Shown here in pieces: positions 32,001 to 38,739 of a DNA stretch of 41,699 nt. The position numbers and the translations under genes are program-made. The stretch is taken from contig CANQYC010000003.1 of assembly GCA_947627945.1 (NCBI GenBank), positions 1-41,699 of the forward strand, in the 5' to 3' direction. Below the pieces are notes generated by a model that saw nothing but the letters and a program-made list of their open reading frames with translations, did not search any database and was not told the DNA's origin. How positions within the stretch are numbered: position 1 is the stretch's first letter; every line of letters starts with the position of its first letter. The DNA is from an uncultured Clostridia bacterium. GTDB lineage: Bacteria; Bacillota; Clostridia; Oscillospirales; Ruminococcaceae.

Positions 32001-34943
32001 TCACTTGACCTCGGACGAGATCGGCAGACCCAGTCCCTTGATGGCATTTGCCACCAGTCCCGCTACGGCATTGGCACCGGTCTCTGTGAAATGTGTCATG
32101 TCGGTGGAACCCTCCACGGCACCGATGAGATGATACTGATAGGCAGCATCATAACCGATGGCATTGTAGTGATCGACCATCAATGTGTTCAGGTCGATGC
32201 ACGGGATGTTGTACTTGGCTGCCAGCTTCTTGCAGGCATCGCAGTAGTTGGTGTAGCTGTTGGTGAATTTGCCGTTGGAATATGCTTTCAGTCCGATGAC
32301 GGTCGTCACCAGCACAGGGGTCGCACCCTTATCCATCGCACCCTTGATGTACTGGGTCATGTACCATTCGTAGGAGCCTTCTGCCGGCTGATCGACATTC
32401 CCGCAGACGGGGGCATAGCGTTCCGCATTGCCCGAGGCGGAGTCATTGATGGCGAACTGTACGAGCAGATAATCCCCCGGCTGAATGGCATCGAGGATCG
32501 TGGTCAGTCTGCCGTTGTCGTAGAAGCTCTTGGAGCTGCGCCCGGCAATGGCATGATTGGAGACGGTCACATTGTCGGTAAAATAGGATCCGAGGTAATA
32601 CCCCCACCCCTGCTGCGGCGCATAGCTGGCACGATAGGACTGCACGGTGGAATCGCCGGCAATATAGATCGTTGCGCCGGCTGTCGGCTGCGGTTCCGGT
32701 CCTGCGGGCGGCTGATAGGTCTCTGCGATTGGTTCATCCGTCCACTCTGTCCGCAGATAATCGAGATTGGGGCCGCCCTCTGCCGTTGCAGAAGTCAGCC
32801 GGATGAGATTGGCACCGGCAACGAGCGGCAGCACGATGGCACGTTCGTTCCATTCCGTCCATGCACTGGTGGACAGGAAATCCTGCATCCAGTAGTCCGC
32901 TGCGTTGTTGACCTCGATCTTCATCTGCCGGTTATTGGCACTGCCGTTGGCAATGCCAAACGTACAGAGATAGTTGCCGTCTTTGGGGACGGTGACCGTA
33001 AACTCTGTGAAGCTCATGGCATCGTTATCAAGGTTCAGGTAGGCATCGGAAGTAAACCCTGCGTTCACGGATTCGTGTACGCCCTTGCTGAAAGCGGCAT
33101 CTATCGCATAATAGACCTGCTTGCCCTCTGCCACGGAGGTGATCTTTCCGCTGCCGAGTACAAAATCACGCAGCACTGCCAGATCGTCTGCATTGATCTG
33201 CACATCTCCATTGAGATCGGAGACCCTGCGCTGTGCATGGGTAACGGTGCCCGCTGTGAGCTGCCGTTTGAGCAGTGCCTCATCTACCACGTTCACAATG
33301 CCGTCGCCATTCAGGTCGCCCGGTGCCACGGCTCCGGCGGAGGTCACGGCATTGTCTATGAACCATGTCTGGCATGCATGGCCGTTTCTCTCCCATTCCT
33401 GCACATTCTCGCCGCTGATGCCGGAGGCATCCTTGACTTCTACGGCACTCTTGCTGTCACTGACTTTCGTTGCGATGACATAGCTGCCGTTCTCCTGCCG
33501 GAGGAAGCGAAAGAGCTGCGCATCGGATGCGGTATTCTCCCAGACGCCGATATTGGTGCCATTTGCCATTTTTCCGTTTGCAACATCTAAAAACAGGCTT
33601 TCGTCACTGGCACTCACAAGGTAATAATATCCATCCTCTGCGGGGACGGCTTTCCAGAGTGCTGCCCCGGAATCAATGCCCGGTGCGGCAAGCTGTGCCA
33701 CATTGGTGCCATTCTCCGGTGCGCCTGTCATGGACAGATACTGCCCGGAGTTGCCGTTGCGTAGCATGAAAACATCCGGCACATCCTCAAGAACACTGCC
33801 TGTTTCTGTAAATACCAGCCCTGCCACCAGCTCTGCGAGCTTCATGGAGCCGGTCTTGCTCTGGTGCAGATCATCTTCCTCTGCATAGTAGGCAGCCATG
33901 CCGTCATAGCCGACACTCAGCCCGAAATCCTGCCAGGGGTTAAACAGATCCACGACCGTTACACCCTCTGCGGCACCAATGCTGTCCATCTGTCCGCCGA
34001 ACCATCTGCCGGAAAGCAGCGGGCTTCTGTTCAGGTCGCTGCGGCGTCCCTGCTGCTTGACGAGGATGACGGTCATGCCCTTCTTTTTCGCACGCTGTAC
34101 CATATCGGTGACGACCTGCGTGTATTCCTCTGCATTGGAGTAGTTGGTGTCATTGATGCCGATGGCGATGATATAATAATCACCGGTCTTTCCGTAGGCT
34201 TCGATGGCATCGAACTGTCCGCCGTCCACAAAGCCCTTGGCATACTGACCGCTTGCCGCCATATTGCGGACTACATAGCCCTCGGCAGCCGTGCCGGTCA
34301 GGTTGTCTGCAAGGAACTGTCCCCAGCCGTGCTGTGCTGTGTCGTTGGTATTGTAGTAGTTGGCGACCGTGGAATCGCCGCAGAGCCATACCGTGGGGTT
34401 GGTCTCTCCCGTGGTATTGAGCTGCCGGATCTCCACAGCACTGATGGAAAATGCAGTGCCCGCCCTGCCGGCAACTGCCTGTAGATTGAGCTGTCCATCC
34501 GTGACAGGCAGCTCGAACGTCTCCACCGCATTGTTGCCGGTAAGATTGATCAGCTGGAGCATCCCCTCTGCCCGGATGCTGGTGCGGCTGGTGTTCCCGG
34601 TGGTCACCGTTACCTCATACAGACCCTTTGGCAGATCGACATTGAATGTGTTCCCCGCAGCTTCGGAAGTGAACTGTACCGCATCGCTGCGTGCGCCGCT
34701 TCCGGCGGCTGCCACATCCTTGACGCCGGATGTATTGGCAAAGCCATAGCCCGCCGATGCACTGTAGCCATTGGCGGCACTGACCCCGGTATAGCCGGAG
34801 GCTGCCCCGCCGCCGCCAAGGTCAAATTTCCACTCCGTCCCCGCCGCATCTGCCATCTGGGGGGTCTGCCCCATCCCCAGAACAGCCATTGAAGCGGCAA
34901 GGAACATGCCAAGGAACCGTTGTCTGAACGTTCGCATCTTCAT
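32001..34943 (-). CDS. secreted multidomain SGNH esterase (rhamnogalacturonan-acetylesterase-like) with ricin-type, dockerin and CBM35-like modules and a second SGNH domain
   Basis: Signal peptide; SGNH-1 (WLCGDSTVAN, AIGINDTN, DLHQSKTGSMKLAEL); ricin-like repeats; dockerin GDLNGDGIVNVVDEALLKRQLTAG...SDLNGDVQINADDLAVLRDFVLG; CBM-like region; SGNH-2 (YIAGDSTVQSY, QFAINDSA, DMTHFTETGA). Confidence 0.92.
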   Translation of the reverse strand: MKMRTFRQRFLGMFLAASMAVLGMGQTPQMADAAGTEWKFDLGGGGAASGYTGVSAANGYSASAGYGFANTSGVKDVAAAGSGARSDAVQFTSEAAGNTFNVDLPKGLYEVTVTTGNTSRTSIRAEGMLQLINLTGNNAVETFELPVTDGQLNLQAVAGRAGTAFSISAVEIRQLNTTGETNPTVWLCGDSTVANYYNTNDTAQHGWGQFLADNLTGTAAEGYVVRNMAASGQYAKGFVDGGQFDAIEAYGKTGDYYIIAIGINDTNYSNAEEYTQVVTDMVQRAKKKGMTVILVKQQGRRSDLNRSPLLSGRWFGGQMDSIGAAEGVTVVDLFNPWQDFGLSVGYDGMAAYYAEEDDLHQSKTGSMKLAELVAGLVFTETGSVLEDVPDVFMLRNGNSGQYLSMTGAPENGTNVAQLAAPGIDSGAALWKAVPAEDGYYYLVSASDESLFLDVANGKMANGTNIGVWENTASDAQLFRFLRQENGSYVIATKVSDSKSAVEVKDASGISGENVQEWERNGHACQTWFIDNAVTSAGAVAPGDLNGDGIVNVVDEALLKRQLTAGTVTHAQRRVSDLNGDVQINADDLAVLRDFVLGSGKITSVAEGKQVYYAIDAAFSKGVHESVNAGFTSDAYLNLDNDAMSFTEFTVTVPKDGNYLCTFGIANGSANNRQMKIEVNNAADYWMQDFLSTSAWTEWNERAIVLPLVAGANLIRLTSATAEGGPNLDYLRTEWTDEPIAETYQPPAGPEPQPTAGATIYIAGDSTVQSYRASYAPQQGWGYYLGSYFTDNVTVSNHAIAGRSSKSFYDNGRLTTILDAIQPGDYLLVQFAINDSASGNAERYAPVCGNVDQPAEGSYEWYMTQYIKGAMDKGATPVLVTTVIGLKAYSNGKFTNSYTNYCDACKKLAAKYNIPCIDLNTLMVDHYNAIGYDAAYQYHLIGAVEGSTDMTHFTETGANAVAGLVANAIKGLGLPISSEVK

Positions 34944-35057: not shown

Positions 35058-36503
35058 CTATGCCTTCTGCGGCGTGTGGTTTTTCAGGATCCCTAAAGTC
35101 AAATCATTGGTATTTCTGTCCAGCTCCCGATACGTCCCGATGATAAGGAGAAAAGCGATCACAAATGTCAGGATATCCGACACGGGCATGGAAAATAAAA
35201 CACCGTCAAGTCCGAAAAAGACAGGGAGGACGACTGCAAAGCCCACGCCGAAAACAATTTCCCGTATCATGGAAAGTGCTGTCGATTGCACGGCTTTTCC
35301 CATTGCCTGCAAAAAGATGAAGCAGGATTTATTGACGCAGGCAAAGATCATCATGCAAAGGTAAATACGGAAAGCCCGTACTGCGAAATCGGTGTAATAA
35401 CTGCTCTCATTTGCGGCACCGAATATGTCGATGAGCTGCCTTGGAAAAATTTCCACGACCAGAAGTGCCACAGCACCGACAGCGGCTTCTGAGAGCAGTA
35501 ATTTTGTGAACAGCTCTTTCACACGTCTGCAAAGCCCTGCCCCCATATTGAATCCGACAATGGGGATGCAGCCTGCTGCCATCCCGACAGCGATCGAAAT
35601 GACGATCTGAAAGAATTTCATGACAATGCCGACCACTGCCATGGGGATCTGGGCATATTGTTCCTGTCCGAAGACCGCATCCATCGCACCGTATTTGCGG
35701 ATCATATTGTTGATGGCTGCCATTGCGGCGACAAGGGCGATCTGTGACAGAAAACTTGTCATGCCGAGCGAGAGCGTTTTGCGGATAGTGGAGCCATCAG
35801 GCTTGAGATCAGCCTTTCCGGGCTTCACGGCTTTCATGTGGCACAGATACCATACCGCAAGGGCTGCCGTTGCGATCTGTCCGATGACCGTTGCAGCTGC
35901 GGCACCCATCATCCCCCACCGGAAAACAAAAATGAAGAGCGGGTCAAGCAGGATGTTCAGCACAGCACCCGTAAACATGGAGAGCATCGCAAATTTAGGA
36001 TCGCCGTCCGCACGGATCACGGGATTCATCGCCTGCCCGAACATGTAGAACGGGATCCCCAGCGAGATATAGAAGAAATACGCTTTCGCATGACGGAACG
36101 TTTCCGGATTGACCGTACCGCCGAACAATGCGATGATGCTGTCGCTGAAGACCAGATAGACTGCGCAGAGCAGCAGACTCAAAACGATCGTCAATACCAC
36201 AGAATTGCCGACGCTTCTTTTCGCCTTATCGGGTTCTTCCCTGCCAAGGCTCAGACTCACGAATGCACAGCAGCCGTCGCCGATCATAACAGCAATGGCA
36301 AGGGCAATGACCGTCAGGGGAAAAACGACCGTATTGGCGGCGTTTCCGTAAGAGCCGAGATAGCTTGCATTGGCAATGAATATCTGATCAACGATGTTGT
36401 AGAGTGCGCCGACGAGCAGTGAAATAATGCACGGCACGGCGTATTTTTTCATCAGTCTGCCGACGGGGGCTTGCCCTAAAAATTGGTTTGCGGTCTGTTC
36501 CAT
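35058..36503 (-). CDS. MATE family efflux transporter
   Basis: MEQTANQFLGQAPVGRLMKKYAVPCIISLLVGALYNIVDQIFIANASYLGSYGNAANTVVFPLTVIALAIAVMIGDGCCAFVSLSLG; start set at 36503 with SD AGGAGGT. Confidence 0.95.
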   Translation of the reverse strand: MEQTANQFLGQAPVGRLMKKYAVPCIISLLVGALYNIVDQIFIANASYLGSYGNAANTVVFPLTVIALAIAVMIGDGCCAFVSLSLGREEPDKAKRSVGNSVVLTIVLSLLLCAVYLVFSDSIIALFGGTVNPETFRHAKAYFFYISLGIPFYMFGQAMNPVIRADGDPKFAMLSMFTGAVLNILLDPLFIFVFRWGMMGAAAATVIGQIATAALAVWYLCHMKAVKPGKADLKPDGSTIRKTLSLGMTSFLSQIALVAAMAAINNMIRKYGAMDAVFGQEQYAQIPMAVVGIVMKFFQIVISIAVGMAAGCIPIVGFNMGAGLCRRVKELFTKLLLSEAAVGAVALLVVEIFPRQLIDIFGAANESSYYTDFAVRAFRIYLCMMIFACVNKSCFIFLQAMGKAVQSTALSMIREIVFGVGFAVVLPVFFGLDGVLFSMPVSDILTFVIAFLLIIGTYRELDRNTNDLTLGILKNHTPQKA

Positions 36504-36576
36504 GTGATTACCTCCTAAAAAAATAAAAACGCATGGCAAATAACTGGATTTACGCAGAAATTTGCCACACGTTTCG
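36501..36576 (-). promoter_or_regulatory. hairpin/poly-U leader element A, upstream of the MATE gene
   Basis: Minus strand AACGTGTGGCAAAT...ATTTGCCATGCGTT (14-bp stem with wobbles) followed by TTTATTTTTTT then AGGAGGTAATCACATG; homologous to element B. Confidence 0.8.
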
Positions 36577-36602
36577 ATCTGATAGTATATGTTGCACAGA
36601 GT

Positions 36603-37100
36603 TTATGCGATATGTTTTTCGATATAGTCCACGACTTCGCTTCTGTCAATGTTAAGTGCAAAAGCGAATTCCTCAAACAGCATATTCTCTGCAAGGTTAA
36701 GATAATTCTCATCCGCAGAGCGGAGTTTCTTTCCGTTCTTTGCAAGCTCTTTGCGGCGCAGATACAGGGTCTTGACGAGCCGGATGACCTCATGCCTGTC
36801 GGCACCTTTCAGGATGCGGCTGTATTCCTCTTTGCGCTTTATGTCGTTGTCGATCCATATCAGCCCCTCGGAATTCATATGAGAGATCAGCTCATCGACC
36901 TCCGATCTGGAACATATCGGGTGTATCTTACTGAGCGCAGCTTCGTTATTGGTGGGTACATAGAAAATATTTTTATCGGAGTTGATATGGTTAAGGATAT
37001 AGTATTCCTGTTCTTCTCCTGTAAAATCCCGCTTTTCGATCGCCATGATCTTACATAGCCCGAACGAACCGTACATCACAACATCATCCACATGATGCAT
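36603..37100 (-). CDS. CarD-like (CarD/CdnL/TRCF-type) transcriptional regulator
   Basis: MHHVDDVVMYGSFGLCKIMAIEKRDFTGEEQEYYILNHINSDKNIFYVPTNNEAALSKIHPI...AKNGKKLRSADENYLNLAENMLFEEFAFALNIDRSEVVDYI. Confidence 0.85.
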   Translation of the reverse strand: MHHVDDVVMYGSFGLCKIMAIEKRDFTGEEQEYYILNHINSDKNIFYVPTNNEAALSKIHPICSRSEVDELISHMNSEGLIWIDNDIKRKEEYSRILKGADRHEVIRLVKTLYLRRKELAKNGKKLRSADENYLNLAENMLFEEFAFALNIDRSEVVDYIEKHIA

Positions 37101-37173
37101 AATGATCACCTCACAAAAAAATAAGAGCGTGCGGCAAGCAACTGGACTTACGCAGTAACTGCTACACGTTCTC
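37098..37173 (-). promoter_or_regulatory. hairpin/poly-U leader element B, upstream of the CarD-like gene
   Basis: Minus strand GAGAACGTGTAGCAGTTACTGCGTAAGTCCAGTTGCTTGCCGCACGCTCTTATTTTTTTGTGAGGTGATCATTATG; aligns with element A through the start codon. Confidence 0.8.
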
Positions 37174-37180
37174 TAAGTAT

Positions 37181-37209
37181 ATTATACCACAGTTTCGAGC
37201 GGAGCGCAA
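37181..37209 (-). promoter_or_regulatory. promoter of the CarD-like gene
   Basis: Minus strand TTGCGC-17 nt-TATAAT. Confidence 0.78.
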
Positions 37210-37392
37210 GGGTATTTTTGCACAAAAATGCAGGACAAAAATGAACTGACTTTTTCTTTTTGCAATGCAAAACGCTCCCTCCGCCGCCGTTTTGAGGGGC
37301 GTTTGCCATGTCCATGCAGGCGGGCAGACATCCTCTGCGGGCTTCATAAATATAAAAAATATGAAAATTTTGAAAAATTTTCTGATAACATC

Positions 37393-37421
37393 TTGCAACT
37401 ATGGGCAGGATATGTTATAAT
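37393..37421 (+). promoter_or_regulatory. promoter of the metY-type gene
   Basis: TTGCAA-17 nt-TATAAT. Confidence 0.78.
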
Positions 37422-37455
37422 TAAAAGTAATACTATGCTCAGAAAGGAAATTGTC

Positions 37456-38739
37456 ATGAACGATTATACAATTGATACCAAATGTGTACAGGGAGGGTAT
37501 ACGCCCGGAAACGGAGAACCCCGCCAGATACCGATCATCCAGTCCACCACTTTCAAGTACGAGACGAGCGAGCAGATGGGAAAGCTGTTCGATCTGGAAG
37601 AAAGCGGCTATTTCTACACCCGTCTCCAGAATCCGACGAATGATATGGTCGCTGCCAAAATTTGTGAACTGGAGGGCGGTGCGGCGGCAATGCTGACTTC
37701 CTCCGGGCAGGCTGCCAATTTCTTTGCCATCTTCAATATCGCCTCCTGCGGCGATCATGTCGTGGCATGCTCAACGATCTATGGCGGCACTTACAATCTT
37801 TTCCATGTCACCATGAAGAAAATGGGCATCGAGTTTACATTCGTCGATCCAAACTGTTCAGAAGAAGAGCTGAATGCGGCATTTCGTCCCGAAACAAAGG
37901 CAGTTTTCGGGGAGACCATCGCAAACCCCGCACTCACCGTCCTCGATATTGAAAAATTTGCCAAGGCAGCACATGCGCATGGGGTGCCGCTGATCGTGGA
38001 CAATACCTTTGCAACACCCGTGAACTGCCGCCCGTTTGAGTGGGGATGCGACATTGTGACACATTCCACAACAAAATACATGGACGGACACGGAGCCGGT
38101 GTCGGCGGCTGTATCGTGGACAGCGGCAAATTTGACTGGCTTGCACATGCGGATAAATTTCCGGGACTTACCACGCCGGACGACAGCTATCACGGTGTGA
38201 CCTATGCGGAAAAATTTGGTCTGGGCGGTGCGTTCATCACAAAATGCACGGCGCAGCTGATGCGGGACTTCGGTTCGATCCAGTCTCCGCAGAATGCATT
38301 TATCCTCAATCTCGGACTGGAAAGTCTGCATGTCCGGATGCCGAGGCACTGTGAAAACGGGCTTGCCGTTGCGAAATTTCTGAAAAGCCATCCGAAGATC
38401 CGGTTTGTGACATACCCGTCTCTGGAGGGCGATCCCTACTATGAACTGGCAAAGAAATACATGCCGGACGGCACCTGCGGCGTGGTGTCCTTTGGGTTCC
38501 ACGGTGGGAGAGCTGCTGCGGAAATGTTCATGAAGCATCTGAAACTTGCCGCCATCGAGACGCATGTCGCCGATGCACGCACCTGCTGTCTGCATCCGGC
38601 TTCTGCGACACACCGGCAGATGAATGACAAGGAACTGGAAGCCGCTGGCATCAGCTCGGATCTTGTGCGCATGTCGTGCGGACTTGAAAATGCGGCGGAT
38701 CTGATCGCAGATATTTCACAGGCTCTGGAAAAAATATGA
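37456..38739 (+). CDS. O-acetylhomoserine aminocarboxypropyltransferase/cysteine synthase family, PLP-dependent (MetY-like)
   Basis: MNDYTIDTKCVQGGYTPGNGEPRQIPIIQSTTFKYETSEQMGKLFDLEESGYFYTRLQNPTNDMVAAKICELEGGAAAMLTSSGQAANFF...DIVTHSTTKYMDGHGAGVGG (PLP lysine); start set at 37456. Confidence 0.94.
   Translation: MNDYTIDTKCVQGGYTPGNGEPRQIPIIQSTTFKYETSEQMGKLFDLEESGYFYTRLQNPTNDMVAAKICELEGGAAAMLTSSGQAANFFAIFNIASCGDHVVACSTIYGGTYNLFHVTMKKMGIEFTFVDPNCSEEELNAAFRPETKAVFGETIANPALTVLDIEKFAKAAHAHGVPLIVDNTFATPVNCRPFEWGCDIVTHSTTKYMDGHGAGVGGCIVDSGKFDWLAHADKFPGLTTPDDSYHGVTYAEKFGLGGAFITKCTAQLMRDFGSIQSPQNAFILNLGLESLHVRMPRHCENGLAVAKFLKSHPKIRFVTYPSLEGDPYYELAKKYMPDGTCGVVSFGFHGGRAAAEMFMKHLKLAAIETHVADARTCCLHPASATHRQMNDKELEAAGISSDLVRMSCGLENAADLIADISQALEKI

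Follow-up and report, generated by a model that had tools for sequence, protein, structure and literature searches.

The HMP-PP (thiS motif) riboswitch carries its aptamer nested in a terminator, such that P1 competes with the terminator stem, and is found only in association with genes for thiazole or thiamin (Atilho et al., 2019, PMC6478431). The guanidine-IV riboswitch (mepA or GGAM-1) uses the loop of an upstream hairpin to kiss the terminator loop (Lenkeit et al., 2020, PMC7736828); its aptamer in C. botulinum is 88 nt long. Gd4v comprises two hairpins and a pseudoknot and is mostly found before PRK07324 transaminases (Lenkeit et al., 2022, PMC9788692). A survey of ncRNAs in 26 genomes reported the HRC-8-4 motif, a terminator stem with a conserved loop and no separate aptamer, which is associated with hvrB and was described as resembling HMP-PP and guanidine-IV (PMC8632094).

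We have analysed a window of 41,699 nt from an uncultured Clostridia bacterium of the Ruminococcaceae (GCA_947627945.1, contig CANQYC010000003.1). Two elements of ∼ 50 nt, A and B, lie on its minus strand in front of a MATE exporter gene and a CarD-like gene respectively (Table 1). They are predicted transcription attenuators with two mutually exclusive folds, and we consider it likely that they represent a widespread class of RNA switches embedded in terminators, most likely riboswitches with ON logic. As in HMP-PP, a putative aptamer is located in the terminator hairpin, the loop is unusually conserved, two folds exclude each other, the ON fold has a distinct P1 and a P2 hairpin, and the terminator is close to the start codon (PMC6478431). 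The element differs from HMP-PP in its genes, which are exporters, CarD and others, none of those classified being a thiamin gene, and in P2, which is the terminator tip in thiS but the middle of the terminator 5′ arm here. Rfam 15, which may or may not include a thiS model, gave no match to the element at either the gathering or a relaxed threshold. Control of MATE exporters by terminator read-through and a sensing loop within the terminator hairpin are shared with guanidine-IV (PMC7736828); in the element, however, no hairpin lies upstream and the loop pairs with the 5′ end of the RNA itself. Guanidine-IV, the first lead, was rejected on its architecture as described in these papers. Gd4v is likewise a terminator-embedded orphan switch, enriched in gut bacteria, whose genes include MATE and GNAT (PMC9788692), whereas the element has a single hairpin and no transaminase among its classified genes. 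HRC-8-4 shares the terminator stem and conserved loop and is set apart, from its description alone, by the association with hvrB. A scan of the whole window against Rfam at the gathering threshold returned no family matching the elements, and a scan of the elements and their relatives at a relaxed threshold returned only chance-level matches. No account of this RNA was found in the open-access literature on CarD or MATE genes and RNA motifs. The structured RNA class is apparently undescribed, in agreement with an initial annotation of the locus, which had not recognized it as a named riboswitch class.

That annotation had also placed the two elements before the MATE and CarD-like genes and had described an attenuator-type leader with a conserved loop, T-tract and Shine-Dalgarno (SD) sequence; both points were borne out by sequence, fold and family. 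The order in both elements is hairpin, T-tract, SD. The predicted fold of A has an energy of −22.7 kcal/mol (z −6.5) and that of B −17.1 kcal/mol (z −2.1). Exact copies of the loop occur in the genome only in A and B, and a third match has two mismatches. Covariance model R1, which includes both copies among its seed sequences, scores A at 57.9 bits (E 9.2e-11 per genome) and B at 52.7 bits (E 1.8e-9 per genome); the corresponding scores with model R2 are 53.4 and 49.1 bits. Because of the R1 E values, and because relatives occupy the same position at unrelated loci, both elements are beyond chance. The CarD-like protein is matched by Pfam PF02559 (E 2e-10) and PF21095 (E 5e-6) and, in phmmer, by CarD structures; its sequence indicates a full CarD consisting of the RID plus the C-terminal domain. 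The MATE protein is matched by PF01554 (E 3e-32) and scores above the cut-off of TIGR00797. The CarD-like gene is predicted to be regulated by B and the MATE gene by A.

For B, the promoter TTGCGC-17-TATAAT had been proposed. Its TATAAT is good, but TTGCGC matches at only 3 of 6 positions and a promoter scan leaves the B promoter unflagged. A is preceded, at the same distance as B, by a TATACT box that the initial annotation did not list. No convincing −35 accompanies this box and A may therefore be transcribed partly from the CarD promoter. Two neighbouring genes were characterized by eye. An O-acetylhomoserine sulfhydrylase-like gene (37228-38739, plus strand) runs divergently from the CarD promoter and probably starts at an internal ATG near 37456. 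The open reading frame list also holds, at 32001-34943 (minus strand), a protein of 980 aa that looks extracellular and combines two GDSL/SGNH-like halves with a dockerin-like stretch.

Table 1. Features of elements A and B and of the genes behind them (window coordinates).
Feature	Position	Strand	Basis
Element B, terminator-embedded RNA switch before CarD-like gene	37123..37171	-	covariance model, sequence
B −35, TTGCGC, weak	37204-37209	-	sequence
B −10 box, TATAAT, 9 nt before element	37181..37186	-	sequence
B P1 5′ strand, GAAC, also base of terminator 5′ arm	37168..37171	-	covariation with columns 45-48
B P2 5′ strand, GCAG, within terminator 5′ arm	37159..37162	-	covariation, columns 10-12/25-27
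B P2 3′ strand, CTGC	37152..37155	-	covariation
B conserved core, GTAAGTCCA (consensus GUAARUCCR)	37143..37151	-	column conservation
B P1 3′ strand, GTTG, in terminator loop	37139..37142	-	covariation
B terminator 3′ arm	37127..37135	-	sequence, fold, terminator covariation
B T-tract	37115-37126	-	sequence
B SD, GAGGTG	37107-37112	-	sequence
CarD-like gene, 165 aa, CarD_TRCF_RID + CarD_C, behind B	36603..37100	-	Pfam, phmmer
Element A, terminator-embedded RNA switch before MATE gene	36525..36574	-	covariance model, sequence
A −10-like box, TATACT, 9 nt before element	36584..36589	-	sequence
A P1 5′ strand, AAC	36571..36573	-	sequence; family covariation
A P2 5′ strand, GCA	36563..36565	-	sequence; family covariation
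A P2 3′ strand, TGC	36554..36556	-	sequence; family covariation
A conserved core, GTAAATCCA	36545..36553	-	column conservation
A P1 3′ strand, GTT	36542..36544	-	sequence; family covariation
A terminator 3′ arm	36527..36541	-	sequence, fold
A T-tract	to 36517	-	sequence
A SD, GGAGG	36511-36515	-	sequence
MATE family exporter gene, about 480 aa, behind A	35058..36503	-	Pfam, TIGR00797

Within the bacterial family the element recurs upstream of CarD genes whose proteins are only about 28-41% identical, and a pattern search located it before MATE and DUF2798-like genes as well. This first DNA-pattern search gave about 12 matches against 14 for a reversed-pattern control, a total that carries no weight; only the placement of its matches was used as evidence, and the counts rest on the later covariance model. 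R1, which was built from 12 sequences, found 82 further matches (the window's two not counted) in 398 genomes of the family. The gene that follows was classified for 75 of the 82: CarD (31), MATE (25), a 79-aa ORF that usually precedes MATE (12), a DUF2798-like gene (6) and an ABC exporter (1), where the MATE, CarD and DUF2798 labels at most loci come from BLAST to Pfam-typed references and not from a Pfam scan per locus. R2, built from 80 sequences, was applied to samples of genomes from the class and from outside it; of the 341 class genomes, 38 carry the element (about 11%), as do four of those sampled outside. An all-species scan, in which a degenerate pattern was run over one genome per species, matched at least 120 stretches; four phyla or more have the element, among them Firmicutes, Spirochaetes, Bacteroidetes and Actinobacteria. 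Among the 80 matches listed are isolates of Ruminococcus flavefaciens, Faecalicatena contorta, Clostridium saudiense, Diplocloster agilis, Erysipelatoclostridium, Adlercreutzia equolifaciens and Millionella massiliensis, together with Spirochaete bins; the genes behind the matches listed are again mostly MATE and CarD. The covariance search of Clostridia genomes that the initial annotation had suggested thus found homologues upstream of other genes, and the breadth across phyla exceeds what had been proposed. A mobile or interspersed repeat was rejected, since each genome has few copies (1-4), nearly always ahead of genes from the same families.

A −10 box precedes the element by 4-14 nt at 78% of loci, compared with 6% at control offsets. 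The commonest distance is exactly 7 nt, and the usual predicted transcription start is therefore the first base of the element. Within operons a second copy often separates the 79-aa ORF from MATE with no evident promoter, and the same is true of a copy before an ABC pair at one locus. These copies argue for an element that acts on the passing transcript.

The terminator helix is paired in 94.5% of cells in 80 aligned sequences (84.0% when shuffled), with 65 double changes (17 when shuffled). The pattern used for the all-species scan omitted the 3′ arm, so that recovery of this arm is an independent test; it is present in 94% of 78 all-species matches, compared with 16% of shuffled ones, and is followed by a T-rich stretch. 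An unbiased analysis of column pairs identified additional pairs that do not belong to the terminator, between columns 1-4 and 45-48 (P1) and between columns 10-12 and 25-27 (P2). P1 is formed by the first four nucleotides (consensus CAAC) with GUUG of the loop; P2 is GCA/UGC, capped by a variable loop. Conserved GNGYN and GUAARUCCR occupy opposite sides of the internal loop between the two helices. P1 and P2 together are paired in 91.7% of cells (77.8% when shuffled) and show 96 double changes (32 when shuffled, 0/500), with all seven pairs doubly substituted; sliding the partners reduces pairing to at most 42%. Since the search model contained neither P1 nor P2, the alignment was not fitted to them. 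An independent set of 27 rows, drawn from other families of the class and phylum, gives 105 paired cells out of 108 for P1 and 79 out of 81 for P2. Columns 2-4 covary not only with the loop but also with the terminator 3′ arm, a pattern that mutually exclusive structures should produce. Both helices are short (3-4 bp each) and the outermost P1 pair is broken in 15 of 79 sequences, including both window copies. The feature originally annotated as a 16-nt loop is indeed conserved, but it is more than a loop: its 3′ part, GUU, can pair instead with the opening nucleotides of the transcript, and UGC pairs with GCA of the 5′ arm. This second, exclusive fold, which would be the actual switch, was absent from the initial annotation. 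Thermodynamic calculations on the full RNA show that the terminator dominates (mean P 0.89), whereas without the 3′ arm P1 and P2 are marginal (P 0.31 and 0.20 respectively). Marginal stability is expected if a ligand is needed, and the energies agree with a switch. No conserved AUG was found in the leader of the aligned sequences, and the GUG-like columns 5-7 vary (GUG/GAG/GCG); a peptide-leader (uORF) attenuator was ruled out because the leader has no conserved start codon.

The element shows two marks of a riboswitch: in distant lineages this 5′ leader keeps conserved nucleotides and a covarying structure, and its aptamer-like fold is exclusive with the expression platform, since the 5′ columns covary with both. 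We infer that a small molecule binds the alternative fold and turns expression on. In such a model the transcript would start at the element or within a few bases of it, and its first ∼ 35 nt, on emerging from RNA polymerase, could form the small aptamer-like P1/P2 structure. With no signal P1/P2 would be too weak to persist, the 5′ nucleotides would pair with the 3′ arm to create an intrinsic terminator with its U-tract, and transcription would stop after about 60 nt. A signal, most likely some toxic or drug-like small molecule, would bind the internal loop; the ligand-held P1/P2 would then occupy the 5′ arm, the terminator would be blocked and the exporter or CarD gene expressed. The most probable role of the element is that of a putative ON riboswitch for the molecule exported by the regulated pumps. 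The earlier proposal of a small RNA switch or transcription attenuator common to the CarD-type gene and the MATE exporter is supported by these data.

The classes of gene behind the element are non-homologous and mostly exporters. Further targets are DHA2-type MFS pumps (Adlercreutzia and others) and ABC exporter pairs. A MATE protein fused to a Cytidylate_kin2-type P-loop kinase is encoded 56 nt after the element in Treponema, and an MFS protein fused to a Cytidylate_kin2 domain 7 nt after it in Millionella; five genomes have a Cytidylate_kin2 gene directly behind MATE. This type of kinase may act on the pump substrate as a detoxifying phosphotransferase. The occurrence of one leader before several unrelated pumps suggests detoxification of a small molecule. 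The element also precedes a UvrA-like protein with a UvrA_inter domain (a strong copy, locus L273, 1501-1552), VEG-family proteins at three loci and a BMC-domain protein at two Blautia loci. Three copies are present at a single locus (L079, 401-5478; G113:C65), before CarD-MarR, an ABC-ABC pair and MATE-kinase, and another genome has the arrangement of the window, with CarD and MATE each behind an element of its own. Tudor-like PcrA/UvrD domains, like that of CarD, bind RNA polymerase; small proteins near the element at three loci have a possible, weakly supported Tudor-like (PcrA/UvrD C-terminal) stretch.

On balance we lean towards a widespread new riboswitch class, which with its ∼ 50 nt would rank among the most compact and the candidate ligand of which would be toxic or drug-like, common in gut and rumen, and a direct inducer of MATE, MFS and ABC exporters, of P-loop (cytidylate-kinase-like) enzymes fused or adjacent to pumps, and of RNA-polymerase and DNA-repair factors (CarD and, at one locus, a UvrA-like protein). 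Against this explanation, a single xenobiotic is not an obvious fit for the CarD, VEG, BMC and UvrA genes, and an RNA-binding protein could take the role of the ligand. The latter would make the element a protein-dependent attenuator, in which a trans-acting protein (an antiterminator or a CarD-like protein) binds the conserved loop and blocks the terminator. We judge this unlikely, while noting that CarD binds RNA polymerase and is itself often located behind the element, and that small hairpins with a conserved loop of ∼ 9 nt, such as the one seen here, resemble protein-binding attenuators. Participation of the CarD-like protein, as the initial annotation had envisaged, is contradicted by at least eight element-bearing genomes of 95% or more completeness that have no free-standing CarD and carry the element before MATE or DUF2798. 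PF21095 is absent from the CarD-free genomes, nine in number, and the only RID domain above the cut-off is found in an ORF of ∼ 1,160 aa, the size of Mfd. Feedback by the CarD protein, or CarD-dependent control, was rejected on these grounds; CarD is a target of the element and not a required partner. More generally, no protein gene is seen with every element, the core is conserved in four phyla, and the covariation of P1/P2, together with the conserved and asymmetric internal loop, points more to a pocket than to a simple recognition loop.

A plain intrinsic terminator or 5′ stabilizing hairpin, with no sensing and a fixed low read-through, would account for the strong terminator fold and the good U-tract. 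It is nonetheless very improbable: the loops of such terminators are normally unconserved, whereas the core here is conserved at 91-98% at most positions, a second fold covaries with the 5′ arm, and duplicate copies occur within operons, one before each gene. Still less credit can be given to membership of the guanidine-IV (mepA) class or to a Gd4v variant, despite the MATE exporters found behind a terminator-embedded sensor in Clostridia. Those RNAs consist of two hairpins joined by a pseudoknot, whereas the element begins at the predicted transcription start, at the base of its only hairpin, which leaves no room for an upstream first hairpin; it is also shorter than the guanidine-IV aptamer of C. 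botulinum, and no sugE/emrE, PnuC or transaminase gene occurs among the classified downstream genes. Least probable of all is a DNA operator, an inverted repeat at the transcription start that binds a repressor, for although the element is palindromic, sits at +1 and has MarR or TetR genes near some loci, 46 of 79 sequences have a G-U pair at one stem position, which would be mismatched in a DNA dyad, the conserved loop is asymmetric, P1/P2 pairing is sensible only in single-stranded RNA, and some operon-internal copies have no evident promoter.

If the riboswitch interpretation is correct, the element would define an orphan class present in about 11% of the genomes sampled from the class and spread over four phyla or more, with many gut and rumen bacteria among its carriers. 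Its ligand would tell what several unrelated pump families export and would tie a CarD-type regulator of RNA polymerase to the signal of the pumps. Beside HMP-PP, it would be another clear aptamer wholly within a terminator, with an ON fold that starts from the first nucleotide of the transcript. The gene targets and testable base pairs are already known for ligand screening.

Some further features of the operon copies and of the family were observed. At six loci the second copy follows the first by about 330 nt, between the 79-aa ORF and MATE. The 79-aa proteins form a conserved, uncharacterised family (MKRI.ACICQ.LHF...) with no Pfam match. Two loci (L132, 401-490; L137, 401-487) have a variant with a second, separate terminator hairpin, the 5′ arm of which complements the element's 3′ arm, and thus a different expression platform.
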